64,000 nucleotides of DNA from a virus. A program made the translations under genes and the position numbers. The notes below the pieces were generated by a model. That model did no database searches, had not been told where the DNA came from, and worked only from the letters and a program-made list of their open reading frames with translations. The stretch is from positions 1 through 64,000 of the IMG/VR virus record IMGVR_UViG_3300030406_003150; one strand, written 5' to 3'. This document shows, one piece after another, positions 6,501 to 64,000 of this stretch. Every line of letters begins with the position of its first letter. Position 1 is the first letter of the stretch.

Positions 6501-9500
6501 CTTTACGTCATAACGCTTGCCGTCCTTAATGAAGTGAACGTTTGTAATGACTCCAGGGAACTCCTGGTTGCCAGTCATCTTATTGTACCAGTTCCTGTAG
6601 TGGAAATAATCCTTTACTGTAATTTTCTGAGGGACAGCAGGCGGCTTGTCAGCCCACTCTACGTACTCAACTCCGTACTGCCTGTCAAAATCGTAGTACA
6701 AGGTAGTGTCCACCAGGTAGTTGAAGTCTCCCTTGGATCGCCTAGACATCTTAACCGATGGAGACCTTGACCCGTCAGGGGAGTAGTCCACAACATCTCC
6801 GTCCAGCGCTCTAGACATAACTCTTGCAAAGCCTCTTAGGTCAGTTTCAGTATTAATGATGTTTCGTCCTGCGAACCTATTGATAAGGTCAGCAATTCTC
6901 TGCCAGATATTTCTGTAAGAGTTAGGAGTATTTAAGTAGCTTCTTACAAACCCAGCAAGCAGCTCCTCCTCAAACGTAGCCTTATCTCTTTTCTCTTGTG
7001 GTGTTCTTGCTGGAACCTTATCAAGTATTGTTTTGATATCCTGACCAGTAAGAGTTCGAGATTGAATCCTTGAAAGCAAAGCGACATCACCTTCAAAGGC
7101 CGCCTTAATTCCTTCTACTCCTGAAGGGAAATAATCGATAACCCTATCACTCAGAATCCTCTTCAGATCTAAGCTCATATCCACAAACTTGACAAGCTGT
7201 GAAATAAACTTACCCCTAACTGTATCGTTAGAGAGGATAGACTCCATCCCGTAATGATACGCTACCTCTTCTGTGACAAGATTTATTACGCTATCGATGT
7301 CTCCAGTAAATCCTTGATCAGTTCTAAGCTGTTCCCTTACCTGTGGGTTAGTTACATCGAGCATATGAATCTGCCCGTTGTGATACCAACCAAATGTAGC
7401 GGTACCAATCTTCATAGCTCTACCCCCATTAACCCCCCGAACAGCCTTATTAAGCGATCCTAACGAGTTGTGGATATAGATTCTGGCGTTTGGAAGCTTG
7501 TCCTTAAACTTAGCGAATGCTTTATTGAGAACGTTGTTCAATAAGTTTCTGAATTCCGTGGGCACCTGGCTCATGGATTCGTCAGTAAGATTCTTAGGGT
7601 CGAGCTCAATAGAGTCGTCTTGCTCCTCTACATCTAGTGTAAATACTGGTCGAGGTTTCTTGTTGGCTTTTCTTTCCGCAGCGTTATACTTAGCCACCTT
7701 CCTTTCGAGTTCTCCCTGCTCCTTCTTTAATCGCTTCAGCTCAGCTCTTTCGTCTACGCTCATAGCAGACGGGCCGCCGACGGACCCGTCAGCACCTACA
7801 GCGTTCTGATATTTAGTTGCAAGCTGACTGATCCTTCTGTTGACAGTCTTTAGCCTGTCACGAGACTGAGATAAAAGCTGCCCAATCATAGTGGCTGACA
7901 TACGATCAAGAGGGATAGAGCCGTCTTCGGCATCCTCTGTCTCGTCATACTCTGAAAGACGATCAGCCTCAGATGTAGACGCACCTTTCTTTGCAGATGC
8001 ATTTGCTTCTTGCTCCTCTCTAGAAACGTTTTCTGAGTTAGCTTCTGTTTCGTTGCCATCTGCCGCCTCAGCAGTCGCTTCTGGGGAAACAGGCTGATCC
8101 TTTGCTCTAGATGCTATTTCATCTAGCTTAGATTGAAGCGCATCAATCTCTGACTTAGCAGCTTTTGATTCTTGTTTATTGCTGAGTTCAACTACAGTTT
8201 CAATGTAATCTTGGGCGTCCTGTGTTGAAAGCCTAACAAGTATGCCCTGGTTGTCTCGGACAGCAGCTGCTCTTTGTCTCAGCGGCTCTGTCTTCTTGTT
8301 AAACAGATTCGACAGGTTGTCGTCTCTCTTTACCTCAAGCTTCATGGACATTAACTCCTGCGGGGTAGATTCCTCTACCAACCTGTAAGCCATCTTGCTT
8401 GAAATCCTTGCGCCTCCTTGCCTGTAGCTTGGAGCAGTCAAGAGCCCCTTGGTAATTGTAACTGGAGCAGTGCCGAGCCCGCCAACAGCTTCCATGATTA
8501 CGTCTGAAGCCGTGTAGTCTTGACCCGCAGCCAAACTACCAGCAATCTCACCAAGACCCCCACCTACAGCCTCACCAGTTAAACCAACACCAACACCCAC
8601 AGCAGCAGCTGGTAAAGCGCCCACCCTTGAGGCTGTTCTTGAAAACGCTCTAGAAGCTCCCCCAGCGGCAAGCCCCTGGGTAATAAATTCTACCGAAGCA
8701 ATAGTAACACCTCTAGTTGCAGCCCTTCTGGCCACATTGAACATGGCGTCTTGGTCGTTAAGGATAGTGCCTAAGTTTTCCTCATTGTATTCAAGTCCAC
8801 GCTCGCTAAGCTCATCCATGACGAACTCAGCCACGGCAGCTTGCGCCTCAATCTTACCGCCTATAACCGAGCTTCCAAGCCTAAAGCCAGCGTATAGGCC
8901 CCCAAGCGCTCCACCTATGTTTCCGATTATTGGGATAGGGCTTCCAGCAAAAGCCCCTGCTAATCCTCCCGCAATGGTAGTGCCCGCAACAGTAGTTAAG
9001 TTCTGTGGGGTAAAGTAAGCGCCCTGACTCTGTGCGAATATCTCGCCTATAACACCCCTGCTAATCTCTCCCTCTTCGTGATACGTGTCTAGAAGCGCCT
9101 TAAATCCAGCGAAGTAATCTTGATACCAAGCAGCTTCCTCTTCTCCTCCATACTCTTTGATTCTTTCAGCATACCTCTCATTGAATCTCTCTAGCTCTGG
9201 CGTCATAGACTGACCTTGAGCCGCAGCGTTAAGATCCATAAACTCCCTCACTTCTTGAGCGTCAACCTCTTCGCCAACGAAGCCTTGACCGACGATGCCG
9301 CTCATCTCCTCAAACTTCTTCTGGGCCTCTTTACCCTGAAGCCCTATATCCCAAAGAGACCCCCAAAAACCTTGGTCTTCCTTAAATACAGCATTGGCCT
9401 GCTCGACATAAGGGACTGATTGATAGAACGATGGATTGAGGTCTCTCACGCGGGTCATTGCCGACGTGTAGTCCTCGCCAGATACACCTTTAGCCCTTAA

Positions 9501-13021: not shown

Positions 13022-16000
13022 TTATTCTCGGCCTAACGGGTGATGACGTTTAGAATCGCTAACGTGAGTGTTAATGCAGTATAGCTCTTGCACCGACGAA
13101 GAAGAAGAGCTAGAAGGCAGAGTCAACTTGATTGTAGAGAAGTTCCCCCTGATGACATCTTCTGTTGTTTTGGACTGAGTTTCGGTTATCCTTACAAAAC
13201 AGTTTCCAGCTATTCCAACTACAGGAGAGTCTAAGACCACCGTAAACCCATTCGCTCCAGCAGAAAAAGAAGCTACGCTTATAGATTTTTCAGCGCTTGT
13301 AGCGTCTACAAACAGGGTGAGAGATCCATCAAACAAGAACGGAAGTCTGTCTATTCTGGCGTTGGTGACCAAGAACGTTTGGTTATCACCAGACGGATTA
13401 GTAAAGTTCCCCACGTACACGTCCCTCTTGTTGGTACCGTAGTTCCCCGAAGAGCCATTGTGTCTCGGCATTGAGGCATAGTAGTTGCCTTCTTTTTCAG
13501 TCCAAGAAGTTATTGGTCCAGCCGTTTGACCAAGGTTTGTGGTTATGTCAGACGTGCCAGACACCTCCCAGTTGCCATCGCTGCCCTCATATGATATAGC
13601 ATTGAATACTTTAACGTTAGATGGCGACAGCTTAGAAACTACTTTTACTATAGATGGCTGTGCCGACTCGCCATGAAAAGTATTGTACGCAGACGTGTTA
13701 TCGTGTTTGTAGAATATAGTATCATCATCTGAGGTAACCGCTTTATATTTAGCGGTGTACAGCATATTGTTTTGATTACTATACAGGTCAGGAAGAAAGC
13801 TATACCTGCTTTGCCAAACACCTCTAGCGGCATCATAACCGACTGTGCTTTCGCTGCTACCCCTTCTTGTTAGATAGTATACGCTGTCCCTGGGATCATA
13901 CCCGCTCACGTACTTCGTGGCTCCACTAGCAAAAAACGTCTCAAAGAAAGAAGACATGTTTTTTTCTGAGATAGGCACGAGCTGACCACCAGTCAGAGAT
14001 AAAACAGATTGACGTGACTCGTCAACGAAGTATACATTATTGTCTTGTATGATAACAGCTTCTGGGTGCCCGCTACTTCCATAGTCCCCAGATGAATACC
14101 TATGTTGTTCCAGCACGTCTGTAGAGACTGCTACATTTGCACTTCCGCTAGCAAACTCAATTATATTTTTGTTTACTGGAATAAGCGCAAGCTTATTCTC
14201 TTGGAGGGCAACTATATCTTCGTTATAGTTACCTATATAATCAATCGCTCCAAACTTAGCATCTAAAGATGAAAAATTCGAAAGCGAAGGATTAAACGAA
14301 GAGAAAGATAGGTTTGAAACATCCTCTACATAAGCATCACTATACGTCAAACCATTTAGCCTGACTATTTCCTTAGACTTTTTAAATGGAACATGAGCTC
14401 TTCCCTGGCTCCAGATCCTTGAGTTAAACCTATCAGAAAGGGTGTTGCTTTCTATAAACAGAGTTTGATATCCGTAAGAGTCATAGAAATCTCTAGCCTC
14501 CCAAGCAGAAAACGTGCTTGAGGTTGCAGTTTCAAGATCAGTTTCTATATCGTTGTCAAGAACTTGAACTCCTCCTCCTGGGCTAGAGCCAGCATGCAGG
14601 GCAGTCTTACAGGCTACTGGCCTCAGCCAAGAATCGCCATTCGTCACAGTAATAGAAGCCCCATGCTGATTGACGCTACCTGATTTTCTAGCCCCGCATC
14701 TGTCGCCATGGCCTATCTCGTAGTACACCTTTTCAGAAGTAGTTTTCTTAGGGGTGTATATCTCAACAAGGGTTTCTTTGCCCCAGTGATTAATAGCGTT
14801 AGTTCCAATAGTAGTGTTCGATCCAGTAGTCAAATCAAAACCGCTTACATCTCCCCAGTCAAACCCAGTATATCTTACGGCAGTGCCACTACTGTTTGTT
14901 TCTCCACCGTTAATTCTTGAAGCCTCAAGGACCAAAAAGCTGCCAGTGTATTTATCGTCAGCAGCGCTACCACTTTCCCTCACTATTTGAATTGGAGTGG
15001 TAGTATCGGTTGGGGATGTGCCTTTGGAAAGAGTAACCACATCGACAACTTCAAACTCAATCTGAGAATTATCATTAGCCTCTGGGTACAAAGTTGACGA
15101 ATTGTCGTCTGCTCTACGGCTGATAAGTCTTAGCCTGTCGCCTTTAGTAAATGAATAATTTCTAGATACGTTTTTCTCTTCCCTGTAGCTTTCCAAAGTG
15201 GTTAAAGAAACATACAGCCTTTTGTTCTGTACGTCTGTACGGTGTTTTGGAGTACTAGCGCCATCATCTAACTCCAAAGTAGCCACATAAGCTGGTCCAG
15301 TAGTATACTGAACGTAATCGTCTATACTGTCTGGGCCTGCATAAACGATCTGATATCTTTCTGCCCAGCTAGGGGGGTTGTGGTTAAAGGTTATCTTTAC
15401 TGATGCTGGTCCAAAGTCCGACAAACTAGAATTACTTCTTTCATTTACTGTCTTTACATAGCAAGACCCTAGCTCATTAACAAAACCAGATCTATTAAAC
15501 TCATCATAGTAAACTATGCCAAAGCTGTGCGTGCTGCCTGATTTAAAAGTAGGTTTAGCTTGGATTGCGTTTGCAGAAGCAGATTGTGCGCTCACAAAAG
15601 TTGAACCTACGGTATAACCGAGAGTCCCCGTGTCGCTTTCAGCGCCAAGAATATCAGCCTCTTGCTCGTGGCTCATATTAAAAGACAAGGTATAAGAAGA
15701 AAACCCACTGCTTATAGCGTCTACACTAAATACAGCGCTAGATTTTTCTACCTGAATAAGCTTGGGGTTGATTCTAAATCCTGATACCCCAGTGGCTGGT
15801 GTAAGAGTTGTAGTATTGCCGAAATCAAAAGTAGCATTTACATTTCCGTCTAGATCCAAACCAGTCCAAGAAGAAAAATTTGGGCTGAGCGAGCTGTCAA
15901 CACCGCTGTCCACAGTAAACTGCTCGTCGGTTATTGTATACAGATAATCAATGGTTTTGCCATTCATAAGTTCTTCAAGAGCAGCCCCTATATCTTCTAT

Positions 16001-17581
16001 GTCTTGGTCTTGGGGAACTATATAGGTAATTGAAATGCCGTCTTGATCCGAAGAACTTTGATGAACGAGAGACACGCTATCGCTAGACTTCAACACTATC
16101 CCAGGGTCTACAATATTAAGAGATGGACTAGTATTATGATTAGCTATCATAGTTCCCTCTACTCTAAAGACGCCTCCACCTGTAGTTCCAGCGTCAACCA
16201 CTATGTTTTTGCCAGGACCTCCCCAGTTGAAACTAAGTTTTATGATCGTGCCAGCGGGGACAATCGTGTCCTTGTCTGCCTGTGTTGATCCGCTTTCTAA
16301 ACCGTCAAATGCAGTCCCTCCAAGAAGATTTATATCTATAGAAGGCGTGGTGGATGTTGACTGAGTTATAACACTTGTGGCCTGACCAGAGGCTATAAAC
16401 TGCTCATCCTTGTCGGTAAGTGGAGAATACTGAACTGTAAGGGTTACGTCAGTAACCACATTGTCGAAACCCTCTTTGTAATTAGAGTACACGACTCTAT
16501 TTCCAGCTATAGCCTGTCCCTTTGCGGTCAGAGGAACGTTGTCATATAATTTGTTTACCGTCTGAGTAGGGACAGTTTCCCCTAGAGTGTTGTTGTAAAA
16601 TCTGTAGGTTTCTGTGGTCGGACTGTAAACCGTAACTGAATTACCAGCTATGTGCCTAGTTACAGTTGTTGTTGGGTCAAACTGATCAACGACAAAGAAT
16701 GATCCAGTATTTCCTATCCTAGCCAACAGCCTAACTTCTTTCAGGTCTGGAAGAGTAGGATCTAGTTGGATGTTTACTAAACATACGTTATCAATAAATG
16801 GGTTGGTTGCAAAACCACTTGTCTCCATGGTGTTCAAAAACAAAACCTTGGAAACAGCTATTTCAGAGTATGGAGAGATCGCAGATTCTTCGCCGTCTTG
16901 AAAGATGTTTTGAGTAGCAAACTGAAAAGTGTCCTCGTTAAAGTTGTTCTGGAGAACGTTTGTATCTGATTCAAAAGAAACAAGAGGGAACTTATTATTT
17001 GCTGCTTTGATAGCAGATATGTGCTCTACAAAATTAGAACCTGTAAACTGATCATAATCGCCAGCTATAGCTCTATCTACGTTAATCTTTCTAGGACCAT
17101 TCTGGTTGTCTGTTACGCTGCTAGATCCACCTCCGTCAGTAAAATAAAGAATGGTGTTTATACTACCGTCTAGGTTTATATTGACAACATCTGCCTTTAT
17201 AAAACCGTTGGGATCAAAGTTTAAATTGCTGCTTTCAAGTATGGTCCTATAGGAGTTAGCCGCTAGGGTTCCGTTAGTAGTAGACTTTGTATTATACTGA
17301 TATATCGTATCGCCAGTTCCAGAAGAGCTAACAGCAAAGTAGTATATAAAACCTCTTTGAGGGTCGGACACCTGACCAATAACCACCTTACTGTTAAAAA
17401 TCTGTGAGTCAGAAACAGCAGTAGCGGCTGTCGTTCCCTTGACATTTTTGATTACACCCTCGGTACCATCTCCATCCTCAGATATGGAGACGTTGAGGGC
17501 GTCCGTCATGGCGCCCTCTTTCAACAAACGCTCATCCTCATCACTGACAAGGAAGCGTGGTATGATCTTATCAATAGGCAT
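13022..17581 (-). CDS. large tail / stabilization-type protein, copy A, 1519 aa
   Basis: The N-terminus (IPRFLVSDEDERLLKEGA, then a DALNVSISEDGDG stretch) resembles podovirus tail-stabilization proteins that sit under the portal. Most of the protein is Ser/Thr-rich beta sequence. Near residues 1140-1300 are IPVNKN, ISEKNMSSFF and a YDPRDSVYYL segment that align with the protein encoded at 62061-64000. The segment after that aligns with the separate gene at 61054-62055. So the single gene here corresponds to two genes in module B. It lies directly downstream of the connector genes, with its start overlapping the previous stop. Host-contact or tail-hub function is inferred from position and composition. 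Confidence 0.7.
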   Translation of the reverse strand: MPIDKIIPRFLVSDEDERLLKEGAMTDALNVSISEDGDGTEGVIKNVKGTTAATAVSDSQIFNSKVVIGQVSDPQRGFIYYFAVSSSGTGDTIYQYNTKSTTNGTLAANSYRTILESSNLNFDPNGFIKADVVNINLDGSINTILYFTDGGGSSSVTDNQNGPRKINVDRAIAGDYDQFTGSNFVEHISAIKAANNKFPLVSFESDTNVLQNNFNEDTFQFATQNIFQDGEESAISPYSEIAVSKVLFLNTMETSGFATNPFIDNVCLVNIQLDPTLPDLKEVRLLARIGNTGSFFVVDQFDPTTTVTRHIAGNSVTVYSPTTETYRFYNNTLGETVPTQTVNKLYDNVPLTAKGQAIAGNRVVYSNYKEGFDNVVTDVTLTVQYSPLTDKDEQFIASGQATSVITQSTSTTPSIDINLLGGTAFDGLESGSTQADKDTIVPAGTIIKLSFNWGGPGKNIVVDAGTTGGGVFRVEGTMIANHNTSPSLNIVDPGIVLKSSDSVSLVHQSSSDQDGISITYIVPQDQDIEDIGAALEELMNGKTIDYLYTITDEQFTVDSGVDSSLSPNFSSWTGLDLDGNVNATFDFGNTTTLTPATGVSGFRINPKLIQVEKSSAVFSVDAISSGFSSYTLSFNMSHEQEADILGAESDTGTLGYTVGSTFVSAQSASANAIQAKPTFKSGSTHSFGIVYYDEFNRSGFVNELGSCYVKTVNERSNSSLSDFGPASVKITFNHNPPSWAERYQIVYAGPDSIDDYVQYTTGPAYVATLELDDGASTPKHRTDVQNKRLYVSLTTLESYREEKNVSRNYSFTKGDRLRLISRRADDNSSTLYPEANDNSQIEFEVVDVVTLSKGTSPTDTTTPIQIVRESGSAADDKYTGSFLVLEASRINGGETNSSGTAVRYTGFDWGDVSGFDLTTGSNTTIGTNAINHWGKETLVEIYTPKKTTSEKVYYEIGHGDRCGARKSGSVNQHGASITVTNGDSWLRPVACKTALHAGSSPGGGVQVLDNDIETDLETATSSTFSAWEARDFYDSYGYQTLFIESNTLSDRFNSRIWSQGRAHVPFKKSKEIVRLNGLTYSDAYVEDVSNLSFSSFNPSLSNFSSLDAKFGAIDYIGNYNEDIVALQENKLALIPVNKNIIEFASGSANVAVSTDVLEQHRYSSGDYGSSGHPEAVIIQDNNVYFVDESRQSVLSLTGGQLVPISEKNMSSFFETFFASGATKYVSGYDPRDSVYYLTRRGSSESTVGYDAARGVWQSRYSFLPDLYSNQNNMLYTAKYKAVTSDDDTIFYKHDNTSAYNTFHGESAQPSIVKVVSKLSPSNVKVFNAISYEGSDGNWEVSGTSDITTNLGQTAGPITSWTEKEGNYYASMPRHNGSSGNYGTNKRDVYVGNFTNPSGDNQTFLVTNARIDRLPFLFDGSLTLFVDATSAEKSISVASFSAGANGFTVVLDSPVVGIAGNCFVRITETQSKTTEDVIRGNFSTIKLTLPSSSSSSSVQELYCINTHVSDSKRHHPLGRE

Positions 17582-23377: not shown

Positions 23378-23391
23378 TGCTATTCTTTTTG

Positions 23392-23399
23392 CAAATATA
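23392..23399 (-). promoter_or_regulatory. TATATTTG box before the capsid block
   Basis: TATATTTG on the minus strand, 14 bases upstream of the ATG at 23377, in the short gap between the 70-aa basic protein and the first gene of the scaffold-capsid block. No -33 TTG at the 18-base spacing. Confidence 0.45.
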
Positions 23400-23402
23400 T
23401 AA

Positions 23403-23615
23403 TTATTTCTTCTTGCCTTTTCCAGCGCGGATCTTAGCGGCTTCCTTTCTACCAAACTCGCTCTTCACCCTAGCCATAGCCCAGGCATGCTGAGAAACCT
23501 TTGGTCTGTTTCCAGAAGACATGTACGCAGCTAGACCTCGACGATACACCTCTTTCTGTGCAGCGTCAAGACCAGCCATGCCTCCGCCTTTTTTCTTCTT
23601 CTTCTTGGCCTTCAT
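23403..23615 (-). CDS. small lysine-rich phage protein, 70 aa
   Basis: The product starts with a poly-lysine stretch (KAKKKKKKGGG) and ends GKGKKK. Between them lies RRGLAAYMSSGNRPKVSQHA, a segment seen in short conserved proteins and domains of marine phages (of the type catalogued as DUF5824, from memory). Its ATG overlaps the stop of the upstream gene. It is part of a run of five very basic proteins (23403-24890) between the fibre genes and the capsid block, so it may be a virion DNA-binding or capsid-internal protein. Function is not known. Confidence 0.6.
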   Translation of the reverse strand: MKAKKKKKKGGGMAGLDAAQKEVYRRGLAAYMSSGNRPKVSQHAWAMARVKSEFGRKEAAKIRAGKGKKK

Positions 23616-23839
23616 TACATTCCTAGCATTTTCTTGGCCTTAGCTCTTTGTGCTGGGTCTTTCAACAAAGCCTCCATCAAGCTACCGCCGTCCTTGAACA
23701 CCTTTCCGCCGTACATGTACTTAGGCATCTTACCGCCCTTACCCATCATCATAGGCTTCTTAATCATGCCGCCACCTGGCATCTTCTTCACTGGCTTCAT
23801 CATGCCGCCAGCCATCATTTTCTTTTTACCGTGGTCCAT
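23615..23839 (-). CDS. Met/Gly/Lys-rich small protein, 74 aa
   Basis: A strikingly biased protein: the first 50 residues are mostly Met, Gly and Lys in short repeats (KKMMAGGMMKP, KKPMMMGKGGK), followed by YMYGGKVFKDGGSLMEALL and a helical basic tail. The YGGK/DGGS pattern is shared loosely with neighbouring small proteins and with the ends of larger virion proteins here (YGGKLK at 51962-53539). Coupled by overlap to the next gene. The coding call is supported by the neighbouring tight spacing and a clean start; function is unknown. Confidence 0.6.
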   Translation of the reverse strand: MDHGKKKMMAGGMMKPVKKMPGGGMIKKPMMMGKGGKMPKYMYGGKVFKDGGSLMEALLKDPAQRAKAKKMLGM

Positions 23840-23857
23840 AGTTTTATCTTTTAAAAG

Positions 23858-24403
23858 TTATATCTTATCTCGTTGAGCCATAAGCCTTTTGAGCCTAGCC
23901 GCTACAGCTGGAGGAAATCCTTTCTTCTTTCTTTTAGCTTTTGTCCCTCTATGCTTTTTATATATAGCGCTGATCTCAGCCATAAGCTTCTTTCTCTTCC
24001 CTACGTCAGCACTACCACGAGTATACTTCGGGTTGAACTTCATCCCCTTCTTCGCTTTGGGTACTTCACCTCTTTCCTTTTTTGAAATAGCGATAGCTGC
24101 TTGCTGCTTAAGGTTTCCACCGCTCTTGAAAGTAGCTGGTTCTGATAATTTTGGCCTAACTATATACCCTCTTTCATCCTGAGACAATATAATCTCTGGG
24201 TAATCCCTGCCCTCAACTAAATTACGAACAACTGATGTCTCCCCTGGTTTAACACCCATGGACTTGATAGCTTCAGCTACAAGCGCCTCTCGAAGAATGC
24301 TTTTAGCAAGATGCCTCTGCGGTGATCTTTCTTCCATAACAGGAAGATTCATATCGAAATTAATCTGTCGCTTTATGGGTTTTATTTTCTTCTTTCGTGC
24401 CAT
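23858..24403 (-). CDS. basic phage protein, 181 aa
   Basis: The start is taken as the ATG at 24403, which shares its last base with the upstream TGA (TGATG), indicating coupling. The protein is strongly basic at both ends (MARKKKIKPIKRQI and a C-terminal RGTKAKRKKKGFPPAV). The middle contains SKKERGEVPKAKKG and NPKYTRGSADVGKRKK. It resembles basic DNA-binding virion-associated proteins, but no established domain was recognised. Confidence 0.6.
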   Translation of the reverse strand: MARKKKIKPIKRQINFDMNLPVMEERSPQRHLAKSILREALVAEAIKSMGVKPGETSVVRNLVEGRDYPEIILSQDERGYIVRPKLSEPATFKSGGNLKQQAAIAISKKERGEVPKAKKGMKFNPKYTRGSADVGKRKKLMAEISAIYKKHRGTKAKRKKKGFPPAVAARLKRLMAQRDKI

Positions 24404-51965: not shown

Positions 51966-53539
51966 CTTTTCTTAGCTCTCATTCCTTTCTTACGCTTCTT
52001 CTTCACCTTGAGCTTGCCTCCGTATCTAAGTTTTTCTACTATTGGGTAAGGGAATAGAAGCCTAGTTCCCTTTGGGGTTGGACCCCCGTAAGGCTGTTTT
52101 GGTATAGGTTCTATTTTAGCTGCTGGTAGTCCAACCTCCTTTAATTTAGGGTCAATGTACTTGTTCTTTATTTCAAGGAGGTACTTATCTGCCTCTTCTA
52201 CAGACATACCGTAAGCTTTGGATGTTCCTGATCCCGTCAGAAGTTCGTCAGTCATAATCCTTCTTAGTTCTTTTTCAGGTATCCCAAAATAATTTCTAAA
52301 TCTACCCATATCATTCAGGGTCCTGAAGCTTATGGCTTCTTCCTGAGAGACTTTATCTATAATCTTCACACCGCGATTCTTAATAGTTTTCTTAACTTCA
52401 TCGCTTGCCGAGATGTATTTGTTTCCTTTCTTAATTTGAGTAAGGAACATAGGGTAAGAGTCCGAGCTGAGACTACCTGATTCTGGTATCCCTATCAAAT
52501 CACCTTTCTGTATGTTAGACATCAGAGTGTTCATGACTTTAGCCTGCTCTCTCTTATCGGTAAAATTAGCATTTGGCCGCTTTTTGAGCTCAGTCATGTC
52601 CATGTTCATGCTGTGGGCATATCGGTCCCCATATTCTTTAGCTAAGTTGGGGAGCTTTTCAGACACAGATGCAGAATTTATTTCCGCATAATTACCCATC
52701 CTGTCTGTATAGGAAACCATAACCTCGTTTGGACTGTATCGCTCAAAATCTGCCTGAAAGTCACCTATACTTTCTGGTATATTTCCCAGCCCTCTTGTCT
52801 CTTCTATTGAGGGAGCAAGCTTCAAACTGGATGACGGGGCTCCTTGAGTGGATATATCTTTTATTTCTTCAAGTACAAGCCTTTCGGTGTTGCTTAAATT
52901 AAGACCAGAGAACTCATCAAACGATAAGTCGATGAGTTCTTGAGCGTCTTTAGCTATAGCTGCCCGTTCTTCTTTACTGAATTTTTCAGCTACGAAAGCA
53001 ATATCTTCAGGGGACTCCAACTCCCGACCAATACCCTTGAATATCCTGTCGAGAGCAGGGTTATTTACGCTCTGAGCGTATGACCTCATCATGCTAAGGT
53101 TGCCAGGCAAGAACGCCATGGCTCCCGCAGCGAGAGACAGGCCAGCTCCACCAGCCACCTTACCTAAGTCGCCCTCCTTCACCCCTCTGCCAGCCATCTG
53201 CAAACCAGAAAATATATCTTCCACGTCTCCGACGGGGCTAACAAACTTCATGGGAGTCACGGATTCGACCCTTCCAGATTCCATCGGATACCCTCGGCCC
53301 ATCATACTCTCAAACTCCTCGCGCTCCTTGGCTCTCTGCATATCTCTGAGCATACCAGCAAAGTCCATAGATTCTCCTGCGGAAAGCTGTTGTTGCAACG
53401 CCTCTGGTCGGCGGGTCATAGTAGACTCACTGACTGCGGGCTGAGACTGAAACCTAGGCAAGGGCTGAGACTGAGCAGCCAATCTTTCAAGAAGAGATCG
53501 AACCTCGCCACCTTGCTGATATCTTCTTACTGCTCTCAT
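51962..53539 (-). CDS. virion-associated protein, 525 aa
   Basis: The N-terminus (RRYQQGGEVRSLLERLAAQS) is basic, followed by a Gln/Met-rich disordered stretch. A hydrophobic Gly/Ala segment (AGGAGLSLAAGAMAFLPGNL, about residues 131-150) could insert in a membrane. The C-terminal half resembles polyvalent-protein domains, ending in a strongly basic tail (RYGGKLKVKKKRKKGMRAKK). The GG-containing basic ends occur in several virion proteins here. It follows the holin of module B by an overlapping ATGA. Probably ejected or virion-internal; function unknown. Confidence 0.55.
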   Translation of the reverse strand: MRAVRRYQQGGEVRSLLERLAAQSQPLPRFQSQPAVSESTMTRRPEALQQQLSAGESMDFAGMLRDMQRAKEREEFESMMGRGYPMESGRVESVTPMKFVSPVGDVEDIFSGLQMAGRGVKEGDLGKVAGGAGLSLAAGAMAFLPGNLSMMRSYAQSVNNPALDRIFKGIGRELESPEDIAFVAEKFSKEERAAIAKDAQELIDLSFDEFSGLNLSNTERLVLEEIKDISTQGAPSSSLKLAPSIEETRGLGNIPESIGDFQADFERYSPNEVMVSYTDRMGNYAEINSASVSEKLPNLAKEYGDRYAHSMNMDMTELKKRPNANFTDKREQAKVMNTLMSNIQKGDLIGIPESGSLSSDSYPMFLTQIKKGNKYISASDEVKKTIKNRGVKIIDKVSQEEAISFRTLNDMGRFRNYFGIPEKELRRIMTDELLTGSGTSKAYGMSVEEADKYLLEIKNKYIDPKLKEVGLPAAKIEPIPKQPYGGPTPKGTRLLFPYPIVEKLRYGGKLKVKKKRKKGMRAKKR

Positions 53540-53970
53540 TTCTTAGCTTTCTCGATAGTTCTACCTGCAAAGTACGCACCAAATGCTGTAAGCATAAGCA
53601 CCTGCAATAAGTCTATGTAGCTGTCCTTCACATTGAACGGCCAGTTGTCTAAGCTGTCGAGGATCATCGTAACCATAAACATGCTCATCAAAGCGATCAA
53701 AGTGATAGGGCGAATCAGCTTAGCTAGCTTCACGTCGCTGCCCATGTCAGCCTTCCATCGCTCAGTTACGTTCTTCTGGAACTCAATCTCTGCATCAACC
53801 ATAGCAATACCTTCGTCAGTGTTTACATCTGGGTCTTTGTCAATCAAGTTCTTTACTATTCCAAGCGCCCCCTGATCAGGAAGCAACTCACCTACTGTGT
53901 CAAGCACGTTCGGGGCTTTGCTCTTGAGCCAAGCACCCAGCTTAGTATTCTTAATCTTTTTGTCTGCCAT
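53536..53970 (-). CDS. holin-like membrane protein, copy B (GTA 3-TM holin type)
   Basis: A 144-aa protein of the same design as copy A at 77-505: charged N-terminal half, LPDQGALG motif, two hydrophobic segments near residues 87-107 and 118-136. It differs from copy A at 18 of 140 aligned residues, mostly conservative changes. It lies between the 1555-aa polyvalent gene (four bases upstream) and the 525-aa gene, exactly as copy A lies after the 3026-aa gene. Two active holins might set lysis timing together, or one may serve ejection of membrane-active proteins. Confidence 0.7.
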   Translation of the reverse strand: MADKKIKNTKLGAWLKSKAPNVLDTVGELLPDQGALGIVKNLIDKDPDVNTDEGIAMVDAEIEFQKNVTERWKADMGSDVKLAKLIRPITLIALMSMFMVTMILDSLDNWPFNVKDSYIDLLQVLMLTAFGAYFAGRTIEKAKK

Positions 53971-53974
53971 CTTA

Positions 53975-56900
53975 TTATTGTTCTTGAGCCTGTACGAGCG
54001 CGTTAAACGCCTCTACGTTGGCCGTGTACATGTCTATCATCTCTTGGACTCTTTCATCGCCGTATATGGCTTTGTTTGCCTCCAGGGACTCTATCTTGTT
54101 ATTGTATCTCTGCTTGGAAACGATACTCATAGGGATTGCACCACCCCTAAGTATTTGGTCTACATCTCTTTTAGACATACCGCCATCGGAGAAAGAGGAG
54201 CCAATCTTATCTTCTGCCATGCCAAGCGTTCTACCTGTTTCTGCGTACCCCAAGACCGTATTGTTGAACTTGTCCTGAGCTTGCTTGTAAGCAGAGAAGG
54301 CTTTCTGTATTTCGTTCTCAGACATGATCCTGTTTGTAGACAGGGACTTAAGCTGTTGCGATTGCAACTCGCTCATGATGCCTTTCTCCTCTCTAATCTT
54401 ATTTTTAACAGCCTGATAGTAGTTCACTGTTGACTGTCGGAAACCAAGGAATCCAAGCAGAGCGTCTTCTGGTTTGTACTCTCGATACGTGCTCACCTTC
54501 TCTCCGAATATTTCTGGGCTAATCTCCAATGCCCTCGCCATTTCTTGAGCGTTATTGTAAACGCCTGGACCAGCTTTCTTGGCGAGGTAGTTAACCATAG
54601 CCTTAGGGTCATTGAACACGCCATTAACGATTGGTATGGAGCTGACCTTCTCTCCCTCGCTGTAGATAGCGTTACCGAAAGAGTTTTCGTTTTTAAACAG
54701 TTCGAGCAAAGCCTTACTGGTAAGGTCAAATCCTACATAAGGACCGAGCGCCTCTTCCAGCGCATCAACCGCTCTCTTCCCGACGGTTTCGTCCTGAGGA
54801 TTCTCCAGCAGGATTCTAATTGGCTTAATAACAACCTCCGACGGGAACAAAGCTGTACCATCGATAAACGTGGCGCTATTCTCATCCTTACCCATGTAGA
54901 GGAGTTCGGAATCTTCCTGATAGAAAGGAACTAATGACCTAATTCTTTCGTCATCCTCATCTGTAAGTCCAAGCAAATGTTTAGATGCAGTGGATAGCGC
55001 TCCAATACCAACAGTAGCCATAGTCATTCCAGCTAGCCTACTCATAGCCATCCTAGTTCTTCCAGCCTGCAAATCCTCTACAGCATATAACAAATTGTTT
55101 TTTGTGGTTCGAACCACTTCGTAGGGGAAAGAAACAAACGATCCAACAAACGGATTTCTTCTGATCTTCCTGATGGTTGGCGGAATGTAAGAATATGTAG
55201 GGTATCCACCTCGAATGCGCTCAGCAGCTTTATTAATAGCATCCAATTCGCTCATCCCGCTGTCCATGAGCTTGGCCTTCTCTTCATAAAAACCAGTCGT
55301 TTTATAGAAGTCATCACCAAAAGCATAAGCTTTCTTGGCAAAATCAAAAGCTTTTTTACCTGTAGCAACCCTTCTAGGATCTCCATAACTTGATGAAAAA
55401 TCGTTTAGTGTAGCCATAAGCTCGCCAGACCTGGTTGCGTCACCTATAACCCCTAGCTTTATAAGTTCCTCTCTCTCTTTTTGCAACTGCTTTTTGTTTC
55501 TAACGGGTCCCCACGCCATCGCTGCTGACTTGCCAATCCTATCTGGACTCATGGCAAAAATGTGACCAGAATTTAAACCAAGAAGGATACCACTATACAA
55601 GTTTCTAAACGTAGTGGTTGGAGAAAGAACAGTCTTGCTGAGCTTACCATAGCTGGCAAGTCTTACAAGACTGTTGTATAAGTTATTGTTTACAGTTTCC
55701 AAAGGTCCAAGAGCATCCATAGCTTCTTTGAACTCTATGGGAACATACAAGTCTTTTAAGTAAGACCAATCATTAGAGTTTGGTGCCAGCTTAGTGTATC
55801 CTGGTTTAGGAGTTGCCGTTGCTATGCCCATGCCAAGCACGGCATCAGACAAATTTTGTTGATAGTCAATGCTAGCCAAAAAACCAGACAGCTGTTCGGT
55901 TGTGTTTGCGTAATTAAACAGCGGATCTTTAGCCTCTCCAAGCAGCTCTCTAAACGCCTCTGGTATATCCTTTCTTTTTCTTAAAAATCTGGCTGCTGCT
56001 GCACCCGCCCTGCCAACAGCCATCTCTGAACCTTCACCCCGAACCAGATCATCAATGTATTTTACAACTTCTGCTTGAGCCTGTTCAAAGCTTAGGCCCT
56101 CAGCTGTCTGCAAGTACTCCACGGCACCATCAAACTTCTTTCTGGCGACATCATTCATCTCCCCGTAAGGCATCATGAATCCCTTCAAATACTTGGGATC
56201 GGTAAACGCCTCGAAGCTTCTCTTTATATATTGTCCGTTATTAAACTGAATGGTTTCAATGAGTTCTTCAGTCGCCTTTTTTTGTTTTTCAGTTTTTACT
56301 CCTTCTTTGAGTTTTTGCTGTAAGACATTTACGATGTGCTTAGATAGGGTGTCTATTCTTTCTCTTGAATAATCAAGCACTTGCAAATCCTTTTGATCAA
56401 GGAAGCTCAAGTCTACTTCCTTGTCACCCGTCAGGTACTGATTGATCCTATCGTATCTGCTATTTGTTAGGTTTTCATTTGCGCCTTTTGACGCTTTCTT
56501 TCTGAGGTCATTAATTGCATTAGCCTCTACGTTAATTTTGTCGTTGTAAGCAGCAATATCTCTGTTTAGCTGTCTATATATTTCTGCAACCTCATTGTTT
56601 GCTCCAGCGTTAGATTTGAAAGTTCTATTCCAGAGTCTTCTTGCAGATCTATTAAGAGAAAACTTATCGTATGTCTTTCCGTTCAGAGAAATAGTGCCTC
56701 TCTTTCTGTGGAACAGCTTTTTGAGCCTAGACATCTGCGACTTAGGCTGCGCTTCTTGAAGCAAAGCCTCTTCGTCGAACCTCCACGTAGGGTATTCCTG
56801 CTTAGGCTGTTCTGGGGCTTCTGTTGGTTCTGCTGGTGTTTCTACGGCTTCTGGTTGAACTGGCTGCTCAGTGGGCTTACTAACACCCAGTCGATCAGCA

Positions 56901-58642
56901 TACTCTATTGCTTCCTTTATAGTTCGGAATCCCTGACCCCAGTTGTTCTGATCTGAAGTTTCAGATGGGTCCGTTGTATCGTATGCAGCATACTGTCCGC
57001 TATCAGTTTTCCTAAGTAAAAAGTCACCATCTGGATGTCTTATAACGTAAGTTCCATCAGATATCTTTTCTCTTTTCACCTTCTTTACAGCCTCTGGTTG
57101 AACTGGCTCTGGCTGAACCTCGATAGGTTCTGGCTGCTTGGGCTCAATCGGCTCCACCTTAGCCGCCTCTACAGCGCGGTTAATTATTTCGTCAATCTCT
57201 GAGTCAATCTCGCTGAGTCTGTTCTTCCCCGACTTCAGCTTCGAGTTTACATATTTCTCGCGCTCCGTCTCCAAATCTACCAGCCTAGATCTATCCTCGC
57301 CCTTCACTCGTGGGTCAATCTCTGCGTCGATCTCTGCTTTGCGCTTCTTGGATGCAATCAAAGCGCTCACCTCAGCATCGTTCTTGACTTCTATCTTGTC
57401 AAGCAACCCAGCCTTAATCTGTTCATTCGTAGCGGTATTCACTACGTCAAGCACCTCGTTTCTGTTAGCAGCGCCCTTGTTTATGGAGTACTTAGGCGGG
57501 TTCAGAAGCACTGTGCCTACAGAGATAGGTGCTGTAGCCAGCCCAGCTACGCCTTCAAATCCAATCTCAGCTACGTCAAGCTCCTGACCAACAGCCACCC
57601 TTGCAGCGGTCTCTCCAGCAGCTCCAGACACAGACTCTCCAGCAAGGCCCACGCCAGTAGTCTTCAGCTTGCTGCCCGTCTTGGCAAGCACCTTGCCGCC
57701 CACCGATCGTACCACCCTGCCTCCGATGGCATCAAACACGCCAACAGTAGCACCCTTAGTCAGAGCCTTATTTCGCATTCTAGCGTAGGCTTCTGGGTCC
57801 TGCATCACAGCGAGCACGTTATCTACGTTGAACTCTCTCTCGCCTAGCTCCTCGTTCAGGAATTCTGAAAAAGAAGCAGCCGTCTCCAGCGTCCCACTCA
57901 TCACACCGAGGGCAGTAGGCATAGTGGCAGCAATACCTGCGGCAGTGCCTACGCCTGGGGCTACAGAGCCAGCAACAGCTCCGCCACCCATAATGGCAGC
58001 ACCTTCTGCTAAAGATACTTTGTTCGCCATGCCAGCCATGGACTGCAAGAATATCTCAGGGAGTACGCTAGGGTTATTTGCCAGCCCCTTGAAGAACCCG
58101 AATGGTCCGCTACCGTTCTCTTCGTAAATCTTGTTGAACGAGCGCATCTCGTCGCTCATACCTACGCTCTCTTGCTGGCGCTGCCAGTCCTTTACAGTAT
58201 CTACGTAAGTCTGTACAGTCTCTCTGTCTACGTCTGTGCCACCGTACATAAGCTTGAGGGTCTCGTCTATCTTGGCACCTTCGCCCTGACCAGTGTAAAT
58301 GGCTCTGGCTGTGTCGTCAATGAAGTCCCCCACTACTGGGATGGAGTTTAGAAACTCACCAAACGATCCTCCAATAAAGTTTTTCTCTGCTTCTGGGTTA
58401 GGATTTGTGACTTGTGTGAAGTCCAAATCTGTAGAGGCCACCTCGGAATCTGGCATAAACGCCATAAAAGGGTTTTGAGAGAGCGATTCCGAAGAGTCTT
58501 TTTTTTTTACGATCATGTCCTGGTAGACAGGATACTTCTCCAGCATCCTGTTAGCCAAGTCAAGGTTATCTAAGGCCTCGTACTGAGGGTACTTAGACTT
58601 AATCATTTGAGCGAACTCCTCTAATGTGTACTTATCCTCCAT
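53975..58642 (-). CDS. large polyvalent / internal virion protein, copy B, 1555 aa
   Basis: Shares the module A protein's architecture at half the length. Residues about 195-390 are Gly/Ala-rich and hydrophobic and align with the 3026-aa protein (GLAGESVSGAAGETAARVAV against GLTGEAVGGGLGEIAGSLAA). A Pro/Glu-rich linker (EPIEPKQPEPIEVQPEPVQP) follows at about 490-510. The C-terminal third has VLSPTTTFRNLYSG and FVSFPYEVVRTTKNNLLYAV, the LPD38-like region of large polyvalent proteins. No HExxH-type motif was seen. Presumably ejected with DNA. It overlaps nothing but sits two bases after the 479-aa gene. Confidence 0.75.
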   Translation of the reverse strand: MEDKYTLEEFAQMIKSKYPQYEALDNLDLANRMLEKYPVYQDMIVKKKDSSESLSQNPFMAFMPDSEVASTDLDFTQVTNPNPEAEKNFIGGSFGEFLNSIPVVGDFIDDTARAIYTGQGEGAKIDETLKLMYGGTDVDRETVQTYVDTVKDWQRQQESVGMSDEMRSFNKIYEENGSGPFGFFKGLANNPSVLPEIFLQSMAGMANKVSLAEGAAIMGGGAVAGSVAPGVGTAAGIAATMPTALGVMSGTLETAASFSEFLNEELGEREFNVDNVLAVMQDPEAYARMRNKALTKGATVGVFDAIGGRVVRSVGGKVLAKTGSKLKTTGVGLAGESVSGAAGETAARVAVGQELDVAEIGFEGVAGLATAPISVGTVLLNPPKYSINKGAANRNEVLDVVNTATNEQIKAGLLDKIEVKNDAEVSALIASKKRKAEIDAEIDPRVKGEDRSRLVDLETEREKYVNSKLKSGKNRLSEIDSEIDEIINRAVEAAKVEPIEPKQPEPIEVQPEPVQPEAVKKVKREKISDGTYVIRHPDGDFLLRKTDSGQYAAYDTTDPSETSDQNNWGQGFRTIKEAIEYADRLGVSKPTEQPVQPEAVETPAEPTEAPEQPKQEYPTWRFDEEALLQEAQPKSQMSRLKKLFHRKRGTISLNGKTYDKFSLNRSARRLWNRTFKSNAGANNEVAEIYRQLNRDIAAYNDKINVEANAINDLRKKASKGANENLTNSRYDRINQYLTGDKEVDLSFLDQKDLQVLDYSRERIDTLSKHIVNVLQQKLKEGVKTEKQKKATEELIETIQFNNGQYIKRSFEAFTDPKYLKGFMMPYGEMNDVARKKFDGAVEYLQTAEGLSFEQAQAEVVKYIDDLVRGEGSEMAVGRAGAAAARFLRKRKDIPEAFRELLGEAKDPLFNYANTTEQLSGFLASIDYQQNLSDAVLGMGIATATPKPGYTKLAPNSNDWSYLKDLYVPIEFKEAMDALGPLETVNNNLYNSLVRLASYGKLSKTVLSPTTTFRNLYSGILLGLNSGHIFAMSPDRIGKSAAMAWGPVRNKKQLQKEREELIKLGVIGDATRSGELMATLNDFSSSYGDPRRVATGKKAFDFAKKAYAFGDDFYKTTGFYEEKAKLMDSGMSELDAINKAAERIRGGYPTYSYIPPTIRKIRRNPFVGSFVSFPYEVVRTTKNNLLYAVEDLQAGRTRMAMSRLAGMTMATVGIGALSTASKHLLGLTDEDDERIRSLVPFYQEDSELLYMGKDENSATFIDGTALFPSEVVIKPIRILLENPQDETVGKRAVDALEEALGPYVGFDLTSKALLELFKNENSFGNAIYSEGEKVSSIPIVNGVFNDPKAMVNYLAKKAGPGVYNNAQEMARALEISPEIFGEKVSTYREYKPEDALLGFLGFRQSTVNYYQAVKNKIREEKGIMSELQSQQLKSLSTNRIMSENEIQKAFSAYKQAQDKFNNTVLGYAETGRTLGMAEDKIGSSFSDGGMSKRDVDQILRGGAIPMSIVSKQRYNNKIESLEANKAIYGDERVQEMIDMYTANVEAFNALVQAQEQ

Positions 58643-61048: not shown

Positions 61049-61056
61049 CAAATTTA
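61049..61056 (-). promoter_or_regulatory. TAAATTTG box before the 319-aa gene
   Basis: TAAATTTG overlaps the stop codon of the upstream 333-aa gene and precedes the ATG at 61042 by six bases, mirroring the box at 13013-13020 next to the paralogous gene. Confidence 0.4.
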
Positions 61057-62055
61057 AGCGTTTTGATTTAAACCCTTATCTAGCTTAGAAAAGGCGTATT
61101 CTGCGTTAATAGAGTGAAGTTCCAAAGGTTTTGAGCTAGCAGATTCTAACCTAAGGTTTAAATATGGACCCCTCATCTCATCACCGTTGATTTCAGCTGG
61201 AGAAACAGCAAAAAGGTTTGAAGCTGTAGTAAGATACTGCTCAAAAGCTTGGAGGTATAATGTAATAAAACTAGAATCACCTAAGAAATTTGACGGGATA
61301 GGCAAACTTAAAGTCATAACTCCATTACCAATAGAAACAATGTTTATATCAAGCCCCAATAATGAATTCTCTAGCACTATAAAAGGAGGAGTAACAGAAG
61401 AAAAAGAAGAAAGTGTTTGCAACTGACCTGACAAATCGGGATCATCAAAAGAAGCCAAGAGAATTATTGAGTTGCCAAAAGGAGCCGAAGGAAAAGAGCT
61501 TACCTCTATGGCATTTAGATTTACATCGACTAACACATTAGGGTTACCTTCTAGAAGTATCTCTTGCAAAACCTCTGAAAACAGTCCTTCTATGGAAGTA
61601 GCGCCAGGTACAGGAACTATGTTAGCACTAGAGTTCAACCTAGATCTTGGGACCTCCAAATACTTAAACCCTTCTTTGTCCTCAAGGATCTTAGATGTCA
61701 ACAAACTTTGCTGATTGTTTGAGTCGTCGTACTCTTGGTTAGTGCTAAATATGTATGACCAATTATTTCTGTTCGTCTCTAAAGAAACAGACTTAAATAT
61801 CTTTACAGAAGAGGGGTCATCATTAAAAGATAGCTCTATACTAGACTTGTTTTTAACTCCATAGAAGTCATTTCTAGCTGAGTTCTTGTCATGCAGCCAC
61901 GCTGTGCCTATGTTGTCTTTAAACGACAGCATTTCGTCACCAGAGGAAGCGTAACAAGTCGGGACAAAAGAGTACCTAGTTGTCCAAGCGCTTTGCCTTT
62001 CTGAGTAAGCAAACGTAGCTTCAAACCCGTTTGATGTTAAAGGTATATCTGCCAT
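61054..62055 (-). CDS. C-terminal part of the tail protein, copy B, as a separate gene, 333 aa
   Basis: The first residues (MADIPLTSNGFEATFAYSER, then QSAWTTRYSFVP) align with the 1519-aa protein's VGYDAARGVWQSRYSFLP, and the following 150 residues share the pattern FYGVKNKSSIELSFNDDPSS against FHGESAQPSIVKVVSKLSPS. So this gene equals the C-terminal third of the single module A tail protein. Its own ATG lies five bases after the upstream stop. The two chains could reassemble non-covalently, or the C-terminal piece may be an independent host-contact protein. Confidence 0.7.
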   Translation of the reverse strand: MADIPLTSNGFEATFAYSERQSAWTTRYSFVPTCYASSGDEMLSFKDNIGTAWLHDKNSARNDFYGVKNKSSIELSFNDDPSSVKIFKSVSLETNRNNWSYIFSTNQEYDDSNNQQSLLTSKILEDKEGFKYLEVPRSRLNSSANIVPVPGATSIEGLFSEVLQEILLEGNPNVLVDVNLNAIEVSSFPSAPFGNSIILLASFDDPDLSGQLQTLSSFSSVTPPFIVLENSLLGLDINIVSIGNGVMTLSLPIPSNFLGDSSFITLYLQAFEQYLTTASNLFAVSPAEINGDEMRGPYLNLRLESASSKPLELHSINAEYAFSKLDKGLNQNA

Positions 62056-62060
62056 GGATG

Positions 62061-64000
62061 TTACAGATTAAAAGCTGGGTCATTTAAACTGTACGAAGTG
62101 CCTTGCTCTTGCGTTCCAAATCCCCAAGTGCCTAACATGTTTAATAAATCTGCAGCGCTAATTTGATTGTCTTCGTTAGAATCAGCTTTTGCAGCTAACT
62201 TAACGTAGCTAGCAAGATAGAAATACTGTGCTACAGTCATAGTCCCATCGTCTATCAACCACAATATTGTTTCTAAAGAAGACGGTCCAGCAGGAATTCC
62301 TCCTTGGTCTGGAGTTGGCGTGCTAGCAAAGGCAGGTTCGTCAGGATCGGTTGTTACTCCGAATACTTGAAGCATTTGAATTAAATCAAAAGTATTTACT
62401 GGTCCCTGTTCGTTTAGGTTAAGACTAAAGTTGTCATTGATTTGAGCTCTAAGCAGGTGGTACTCCCCTACTGTAAGCTCATTCTGAACAAACAAATAGT
62501 TTATGGCTCCATCAACACTTTTAAAGTAGTTTACCGTAGTCGGCTTTGGTTTACTTGGAGGTGGTGGGGTAGCTTTAGGTAGCGGAGGAGTGGATGTTGC
62601 TGGTATCAAACCAGAGAACATACCAGTGCCTTCAATGTACTCCTCTCCAAAATTTTCAGCGAACAGTAAAAAATCACCAACCGTATCAATCAGTTGGTTT
62701 CCATTTAAATCAAACCTAGCCATCTTTACGTTGGTTTGATTGTCCACTGCGCTCTCCATGAAGTTTCTTAAATCTAATAGCGTAGGCTCACCTGCGGTGC
62801 CTTGTAAGTCTTGTAGGTATTGGAATGCTAATTCTTTGCTCATGTCTTGATCTGTTAAGTCAGTTCCATAAAAATCATTGTATGCTTGTGTAAACGGAGA
62901 AAGCGCTTCACCGTCAGAGTCATCTTCCGATCCGTCATCACCATTACCTTCATCTTCTGATTCTTTAAACAAAACGGTTAGTGGTAAATCTAGAATTGGT
63001 GTGTCTGGGTCGTTGCTGTATATCTCTAAGAAGCTATTTATTGGTCCATCTTCCTCTGGAATTATGATAGAAATCAATATTGTTTCTGATCCACTAGGCT
63101 GTATCACCATTGGATTGTCGGCGCTAACATTAGCGTTAGCAGAGACCAACTCAAAGTTTATGGCCTCACCATCGTTTATATCAAAGTCGGTTATAATCAG
63201 ATTGGCTGATCCAGTATTAGATACTATTACCTGTTTTGGAGTAACAGTGTCTGTAAGGGTTAGCACTCCGAAATCTAAAACATCCGAAGGGTTTATTACT
63301 ATGTTTGGCTCAAGCTCTTCTACGGGAGTTACATCATCTTCTTGCGTCTCTTGGACAACCTCTTGGACAAAGCTTGTGCTCCTTACGGGGATGTTTACAA
63401 TGGACAACAAATACTCTTCTTTTAGAGTATCATAGCCTCCTACTACGCGGACATTATCACCTACTTCTATGGCTTTTTGTAAAGAAGCTCTAATCAAAGA
63501 AGACATACCCTTCTCAGATATTTCTTCAACACCAGACTGCCTAGTAAATCTGTAAACTTTAGACAGAGATTTATTACAGAAGTAAACTTGCTGACCTGAA
63601 TCATAAACAGAAGAAGGATCATCATCACATCCTGAAACACCAGGGTATGCTATAACTTCTCCAAGCACATTTAGTGAAGCTATAATCTGTTGATTGCCTG
63701 AAGCATCCGACAGCACATTTTTGTTTACAGGAACGATACTGACTTTTTCTTTCTGAATGACTACTATGTAATCGTTGTGGTTGGCTATGTACTCTATATC
63801 TCCGTAACGATCTGATAAGTCTTTGAAGTTTGCTAGAGAAGAGTTAAAAGAAGAATACCTGATTCTAAATGATTCAGGGTTACTAGGGTCTGAGTAAGTT
63901 ATAGTAGCCTCCCTTTTAGTCTCTGCTGCATCTTCGAATATGACGTTTGGTCTACCTCTAGAAAAAGAATCTGATTTAAATAAATCTGTAGCGGACTGCG
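62061..64000 (-). CDS. tail/stabilization-type protein, copy B, with inserted SPD-2/EF-hand cassette (runs off right edge)
   Basis: The frame is open to the window edge, so the N-terminus is missing. From the edge to about 63377 it aligns with the 1519-aa protein (SSFNSSLANF against SSFNPSLSNF; IVPVNKN against IPVNKN; ISEKGMSSL against ISEKNMSSF; GGYDTLKEEYLLS against SGYDPRDSVYYLT). Exactly after that point comes about 440 residues of foreign sequence: an SPD-2/choice-of-anchor-like beta domain (63300-62975, LDFGVLTLTDTVTPKQVIVS and EIYSNDPDTPI), an acidic linker, and three EF-hand/dockerin-like segments (DLNGNQLIDTVGDFLLFAE, NLNEQGPVNTFDLIQML, DSNEDNQISAADLLNML). The rest of the tail protein is the separate gene downstream. 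Confidence 0.75.
   Translation of the reverse strand, partial: QSATDLFKSDSFSRGRPNVIFEDAAETKREATITYSDPSNPESFRIRYSSFNSSLANFKDLSDRYGDIEYIANHNDYIVVIQKEKVSIVPVNKNVLSDASGNQQIIASLNVLGEVIAYPGVSGCDDDPSSVYDSGQQVYFCNKSLSKVYRFTRQSGVEEISEKGMSSLIRASLQKAIEVGDNVRVVGGYDTLKEEYLLSIVNIPVRSTSFVQEVVQETQEDDVTPVEELEPNIVINPSDVLDFGVLTLTDTVTPKQVIVSNTGSANLIITDFDINDGEAINFELVSANANVSADNPMVIQPSGSETILISIIIPEEDGPINSFLEIYSNDPDTPILDLPLTVLFKESEDEGNGDDGSEDDSDGEALSPFTQAYNDFYGTDLTDQDMSKELAFQYLQDLQGTAGEPTLLDLRNFMESAVDNQTNVKMARFDLNGNQLIDTVGDFLLFAENFGEEYIEGTGMFSGLIPATSTPPLPKATPPPPSKPKPTTVNYFKSVDGAINYLFVQNELTVGEYHLLRAQINDNFSLNLNEQGPVNTFDLIQMLQVFGVTTDPDEPAFASTPTPDQGGIPAGPSSLETILWLIDDGTMTVAQYFYLASYVKLAAKADSNEDNQISAADLLNMLGTWGFGTQEQGTSYSLNDPAFNL

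Follow-up and report, generated by a model that had tools for sequence, protein, structure and literature searches.

Towards the end of a viral sequence from IMG/VR lies a pair of genes that appears to encode one crAss-type muzzle, a tail-tip protein, in two chains. The window, that is, the whole stretch of DNA analysed, has 64,000 nucleotides (nt) and corresponds to positions 1 to 64,000 of record IMGVR_UViG_3300030406_003150 (78,121 bases in full). Both genes are on the minus strand. The N chain is encoded at 62061-68024 (1987 residues), of which 62061-63998 fall within the window, the gene extending beyond the window end to record position 68024; the C chain (protein P0002) is encoded at 61054-62055 (333 residues). 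The pair belongs to module B, the second of two structural modules, A and B, that are both within the record. The muzzle of module A (13022-17581, minus strand) is a single cassette-free chain of 1519 residues and serves here as the comparison.

BLASTP aligns residues 1049-1238 of the module A muzzle with residues 4-199 of the N-chain fragment present in the window (P0003; 35% identity, E 1e-26), and residues 1244-1373 with residues 12-137 of the C chain (29% identity, E 1e-11). The first match ends at module A residue 1238 and the second starts at 1244, so that merely five residues of this muzzle lie between them, the equivalent of the break being residues 1239-1244. Homology ends at YLLS and restarts 11 residues into the C-chain gene, which bears out the original prediction that it stops at YLLSIVN and resumes in the next gene. 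The full N chain has further matches at module A residues 1-386, 677-859 and 930-1236. The propeller region preceding the break (63399-63998, minus strand) is homologous to module A residues 1049-1238 and to about residues 1041-1198 of gp44, the muzzle of phage ΦcrAss001 (PhicrAss001). The break itself (62053-62063, minus strand) reads TAA CATCC ATG, with 5 nt from stop to restart. Promoter and terminator scans around the break remained at chance level.

Past YLLSIVN the N chain continues for 443 residues (62064-63392, minus strand) that have no counterpart in the module A muzzle. This C-terminal tail, the cassette, comprises an immunoglobulin (Ig)-like domain of the SPD-2 or choice-of-anchor-D kind (63000-63314), an acidic linker seen in the translation (62907-62966), and two or three degenerate EF/dockerin-like loops, all on the minus strand. 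It had been described at first as an Ig-like SPD-2 domain, an acidic linker and three calcium loops; the linker stands, the Ig domain scores below cut-off in the window and passes in the orthologue from contig L007, and the strict loops number two, not three. Against the NCBIfam choice-of-anchor D family (NF012200) the Ig-like part scores 34 bits (E 3.3e-8) for a curated cut-off of 45, and the cassette of contig L006 scores 30.3 bits; the L007 cassette passes the Pfam HYDIN/CFA65/VesB-like Ig family PF22544 (32.8 against 25.5 bits) and PF22073. Loops 2 and 3 (62385-62420 and 62148-62183, minus strand) match a strict EF/dockerin pattern, which thus has two occurrences in the window cassette (shuffled sequences have a mean of 0.055, and 0.3% of them reach two), three in L006 and none in L007. 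Loop 1 (62673-62711, minus strand) is degenerate, its spacing being canonical in L006 and off by one in the window. The Pfam cut-offs for EF-hand and dockerin families are not reached by the window cassette (EF-hand_6, 13.1 of 25 bits; Dockerin_1, 13.3 of 22.9 bits) or by L006 (18.7 of 25 bits), and for these repeats we claim a loop-like pattern alone. The loops, all under curated cut-offs, may bind calcium.

The pair was previously taken for a tail hub; Pfam muzzle models on both halves correct this to a crassvirus muzzle. The model crAss_MUZ_C (PF25729) is found on the C chain (61645-61875, minus strand; E 1.8e-9, 38.3 bits against a gathering cut-off of 27) and is also above cut-off on the module A muzzle, in agreement with the proposed kinship of the C-terminal gene to the C-terminus of the 1519-residue protein. 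The model crAss_MUZ (PF25731) matches the 645-residue window fragment of the N chain (29.5 bits against 27); it has no listed hit at E ≤ 1 on the full 1987-residue chain and is also missing from the module A and phi38:1 muzzles. As this match is gone on the full-length scan, the Pfam assignment of the N half is marginal by itself, and the assignment is carried by the alignment and by a match to phrog_14478 (E 2.7e-35) common to the N chain and module A. Sequence searches of the PDB with proteins P0001, P0002 and P0004 gave chance matches or nothing. An AlphaFold model of module A residues 1041-1519 (72 alignment rows; mean predicted local distance difference test score, pLDDT, 66.9), which represents the single-chain homologue and not the split chains, was assigned the nozzle-type propeller fold by Foldseek, the best match being gp44 (PDB 7qok, E 2.3e-9). 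A crassvirus muzzle is expected to be a single polypeptide; since two genes are found here, we call the protein a split variant of the muzzle. In the tree described below, a placement made on the muzzle only, the window family lies outside the five Steigviridae/Suoliviridae muzzles, among other environmental phages. We take the source to be a marine crAss-like phage.

The break falls between residues 1198 and 1199 of gp44 in a MAFFT alignment, and profile matches agree, gp44 being itself part of the alignment behind the profiles. Ahead of the break, the module A model has the preceding blade (strands 137-139, 142-147, 152-157 and 160-165), a helix, and strands 183-189 and 194-199; two unresolved strands and then the four strands of the last blade come after it. 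From the order of strands, the break site would be the B-C loop of the penultimate propeller blade. The B-C and D-A loops of a propeller are on the same face. The muzzle is a hexamer closing the tail tip (PMC10172136), its Ig and crass domains sit below the propeller at that tip (Bayfield et al., PMC10172136), and the B-C loop should be on the same distal face as these domains.

A search with P0002 recovered this gene pair from four other contigs (C-chain identity 97% in L004, 96% in L005, 76% in L006 and 48% in L007). Each of them has the stop and restart together with the SPD-2-plus-loops tail; the spacing is again 5 nt in L004, L005 and L006, and 1 nt in L007. Among the close relatives of module B neither a cassette-free nor an unsplit one was found, and no relative of the module A muzzle was detected in viral contigs by the peptide patterns used. 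The ratio of non-synonymous to synonymous substitution rates (dN/dS) between the window and L005 is 0.19 for the N core, 0.08 for the cassette and 0.13 for the C chain. The comparison with L006 gives 0.21 for the cassette and 0.19 for the C chain, the synonymous rate of the N core being saturated. The cassette is under purifying selection. In two further contigs (L008 and L009) and in the cultured phages phi46:3, phi13:2 and phi19:3, the muzzle is broken at the same point and followed by an unrelated tail. The GenBank record of Cellulophaga phage phi18:3 labels both gp114 (N chain with tail) and gp115 (C chain) as 'structural protein', with the depositors' note 'experimental MS/MS proteomics', i.e. 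tandem mass spectrometry. An artefact of sequencing or assembly, or gene decay, might be suspected in a record with two structural modules that may be composite. However, since the same break occurs in four other contigs it is no sequencing error, and with dN/dS well under 1 in all three parts against L005, and with cultured phages that have both the split and annotated virion peptides, we give this explanation practically no weight.

A profile of the C region was made from three phages (two of them split); it gave 278 confirmed places in IMG/VR, of which the best 80 were kept. These, six loci from the P0002 search, four further loci and isolates constitute the survey set. There are 100 loci with a recognizable C region: 86 are split and have the N half, three are split without an N half, and 11 have the C region in one frame with the N region. 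After removal of seven duplicates, 80 distinct split loci with both halves were retained. The same loop is broken in all 80, the N profile ending at position 157-159 of 160 and the C profile starting at 1-3, and all 80 have a tail, of 94-1046 residues (median 360). Unsplit rows have at most 17 residues at this site; among the surveyed loci there is no unsplit muzzle with a cassette at the loop and no split muzzle without one. Near-copies inflate these counts (the tails form 33 clusters at 50% identity) and two of the three seed members are split, so that the 80 to 10 proportion is not to be read as a frequency. Maribacter phage Panino, counted as unsplit, has a muzzle interrupted about 120 residues before the shared site by a gap of 110 nt (L012:8680-8791), which is either another break point or an error in the sequence. 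In two loci (L028:8725-9738 and L044:8743-9717) the conserved start of the C chain is preceded by 84-94 additional residues in open frame, and a cassette may therefore also sit on the C chain.

The spacing of the two halves bears on a possible programmed frameshift or readthrough, which would join the halves into a single polypeptide and leave the cassette as a loop inside it. The 5 nt between the halves in the window would suit such an event. Across the survey, however, the distance from N stop to C start is -8 to +21 nt in 24 of the 80 loci (all 24 adjacent cases), and the halves are at least 150 nt apart in the other 56, by up to about 4.5 kb and mostly with further genes between them. The stops are TAA or TAG, the C start is in varying frames, and a single chain with a cassette at the loop was not seen in the survey, all of which makes recoding very improbable. 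A mobile element or self-splicing intron that interrupts the gene and is later removed has a precedent, in that Delta and Zeta group crass-like phages are rich in introns and inteins (PMC7886860). Against it, none of five loci searched (77,048 bases) has an Rfam match at gathering score, the insert continues the open frame of the N half and is under purifying selection, and no intein or endonuclease family was matched in Pfam by 33 tails or 22 intervening genes; such an element can hardly be the cause.

The tails differ widely. Pfam analysis of 33 tail representatives identified Big_9 Ig domains in five, cadherin-like domains in up to three, BACON in two, and VWA, HYDIN/ASH (SPD-2) and He_PIG in one each; many of the tails, including that of the window, have no match at E 0.01. 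A first domain of about 280 residues is common to most tails, the window family excepted, and 74 of 86 tails are connected in one similarity network. One tail (L034:6739-7959) has an apparent VWA-type domain with a DxTGS motif, the motif and the attribution to this locus being read from the sequences; the VWA fold is often used in cell adhesion. A relationship of the window cassette to the Pachyviridae-like tails was considered and dropped, the profile test being unsupportive (E 0.66 for the window, 0.22 for L007 and 0.61 for L018). From the domain types and the position at the tail tip, a role of the cassette in adhesion is plausible, and the tails would bind the host surface or slime. A structural role would make the tail an extra strut or a seal joining subunits of the muzzle, or else a clamp that holds tail fibres, with the split only an aid to folding or assembly. 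It would fit the first domain conserved in the Pachyviridae-like tails (74 of 86 tails in one similarity network), as expected of a structural element; EF-like loops can be structural too, and host binding is itself deduced. This role seems unlikely, given the complete turnover of tails between relatives (33 clusters) and the presence of Ig, cadherin-like, BACON and VWA types, which are typical of surface binding.

Two of the 22 intervening genes match 2OG-Fe(II) oxygenases in Pfam, and the products of intervening genes might modify the displayed domains. By reading of the sequences, the oxygenase-matching genes were placed between the halves at L064:6930-8105 and L096:6334-7503. Another intervening gene, in L040/L042, codes for an enzyme-like protein of 309 residues without a Pfam match, and in MW202828 the gene between the muzzle halves bears the depositors' label 'putative glycosidase'. 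An assignment of intervening genes as glycosyltransferases was abandoned, as Pfam supports the oxygenases only, in two of 22.

The original prediction turned on the existence of a cassette-free ancestor, and cassette-free single-chain muzzles are indeed found in the outgroups (gp44, DAC15, phi14:2 and cr1_1). Residues 1042-1371 of gp44 align across the site in one unbroken piece in 59 of the 60 records listed out of 76 matched, the sixtieth stopping short; gut Crassvirales muzzles are unbroken at this loop. In the muzzle gene of crAssphage cr109_1 (L113:1339-5451), 18 in-frame stops are read under table 11, as expected with one recoded stop codon. The muzzle tree has 46 rows, including five outgroup muzzles from Steigviridae/Suoliviridae. 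It groups the unsplit module A with the split L018 and the split window family (support 97/86) and puts the unsplit phi38:1 and L036 next to the split L033 (support 97/85). This tree requires five or more state changes, three of them forced by starred branches, and an earlier tree with 91 rows and gp44 alone as root gave five as well. The split rows form one side of a branch in none of 200 bootstrap trees, and the approximately unbiased test rejects a single split clade (p 0.0016). Some branches are long (1.82 for Gundel, 1.8 for module A). With unsplit outgroups, the tree indicates that the state changed repeatedly at one identical loop, by either several gains or an early gain followed by losses. 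The idea of a single insertion event is contradicted by the recurrence of the break with unrelated cassettes across many Bacteroidota-type phages. As to the cassette having been inserted with a stop and restart created after it, the cassette-free single chains of the outgroups make such a derived split the likely history; with neither a cassette-free nor an unsplit close relative of module B found, insertion and splitting may have come in either order.

We consider it rather probable that the pair is a two-chain muzzle in which a blade loop has become a gene boundary that displays interchangeable, probably host-binding domains. The N chain would end in its 443-residue tail and the C chain would restart at the next strand within 5 nt and, folding non-covalently onto the N chain, complete both the split blade and the last one. 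Up to six copies of the tail would then project distally from the tail tip, where they would bind extracellular polymers of the host or its surface. The reassembly of the two chains, the distal display and the host binding are expected from this arrangement. In a chain that ends after its tail, neither a return path nor the reading frame should constrain the tail, so that tails could be swapped and further genes could settle behind them. Such a freed end would explain the turnover of tails and genes at a fixed break as well as the absence of cassettes from unsplit chains. We are evenly divided on a broader proposal, that the distal loop is a recurrent exchange port, made a gene boundary independently in several lineages, in which receptor domains and the genes behind them are swapped while the rest of the gate stays as it is, and splitting is the condition for a cassette.

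Several observations weigh against the two-chain muzzle with host-binding tails. Residues 187-231 of the module A model, which cover the break, have pLDDT under 50, and the B-C loop assignment therefore rests on strand order. In VIA-align the model scores Z 9.0 with the gp44 muzzle and 8.5-10.1 with other nozzle propellers (P22 gp10, 9.6), and a profile of the break region searched against the PDB did not find gp44 at E 0.01. The window cassette is under the curated cut-off of its best family, the EF loops are missing from L007, and an AlphaFold model of the cassette (5 rows) has a pLDDT of 31.9, neither an Ig nor an EF fold being supported by structure. A host origin of the cassette, as originally suggested, finds no support: no homologue turned up in two scans covering 84,980 genomes of bacteria and archaea, viral contigs gave only the same four related contigs and INPHARED phages no match, all of these searches relying on plain tblastn or a small number of short peptide patterns, which distant kin would escape. 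The proteomic evidence was obtained for phi18:3, whose cassette is a different one, and says nothing on contact between the chains. Finally, the survey sample is biased, its profile having been seeded by split members and the best 80 of 278 places kept.

The record as a whole consists of two structural modules, each with a major capsid protein and a muzzle (regions 1-24055 and 53534-78121), that flank one TerL-portal-replication core. Two relatives, G001 (about 54 kb) and G003 (about 53 kb), have module B and the core alone. The record start (75-501) is 74% identical to 53534-53960, and the record end (about 77.4-78.0 kb) is 80% identical to 23390-24055; the record may accordingly be a composite of two phages with a common core, or a genuine double module. 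The large genes at 492-9572 (3026 residues, module A) and 53975-58642 (1555 residues, module B) have PHROG 32588 in common and otherwise match different families, so the cargo-type proteins also differ between the modules.

The muzzle forms the gate, opened by host contact, of a phage group that ranks among the most abundant. A fixed site for Ig, cadherin-like, VWA, BACON and SPD-2-like domains is a testable candidate for the point of host contact, and it offers a way of reading likely binding domains from metagenomes in which these genes are now annotated just 'structural protein'. It would also be an example of a propeller protein that, in a functional virion, withstands the interruption of a blade between two of its strands. 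We found no description of a split muzzle in the parts of the open-licence PubMed Central (PMC) literature that were searched; subscription journals and preprints outside PMC were beyond this scope.

The closest known system is gp44 of ΦcrAss001 (PDB 7qok, 7qol and 8ckb). Of its Pfam domains, PF25729 occurs on the C chain and PF25731, marginally, on the window fragment of the N chain; the split muzzle shares its propeller and C-terminal domain region, and the operon place is similar, after the ring or tubular protein and ahead of the cargo genes. The difference is that gp44 is a single chain of 1371 residues without an insert at 1198/1199, whereas the window chain stops, bears a 443-residue tail and restarts. 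The variation in length that is known concerns the crass and IG2 domains (PMC10172136). BACON-repeat tail proteins of p-crAssphage likewise vary by surface-binding domains, and BACON occurs in two of the 33 tails here, but in p-crAssphage the repeats are on separate tail-spike proteins and not on the muzzle (PMC10136315). Nozzles of the T7 gp12 / P22 gp10 type have the same propeller architecture by fold search (Z 9.6 for P22 gp10). A fixed break that bears an exchangeable tail is not known to us among them. Cellulophaga phage phi38:1 (gp097), Tenacibaculum phage Gundel_1 and the Flavobacterium elemo phages, all flavobacterial podophages, have a homologous muzzle in a single chain, with 3-17 residues between the two profile matches. 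In contrast, the Pachyviridae pairs gp114/gp115 of Cellulophaga phage phi18:3 and gp111/gp112 of phi46:3, which their records name only 'structural protein' and leave unlinked, have the same loop split, a tail on the N chain and the C chain 3 nt on, and differ from the window in a tail that is unrelated by sequence (Big_9/cadherin-like Ig).

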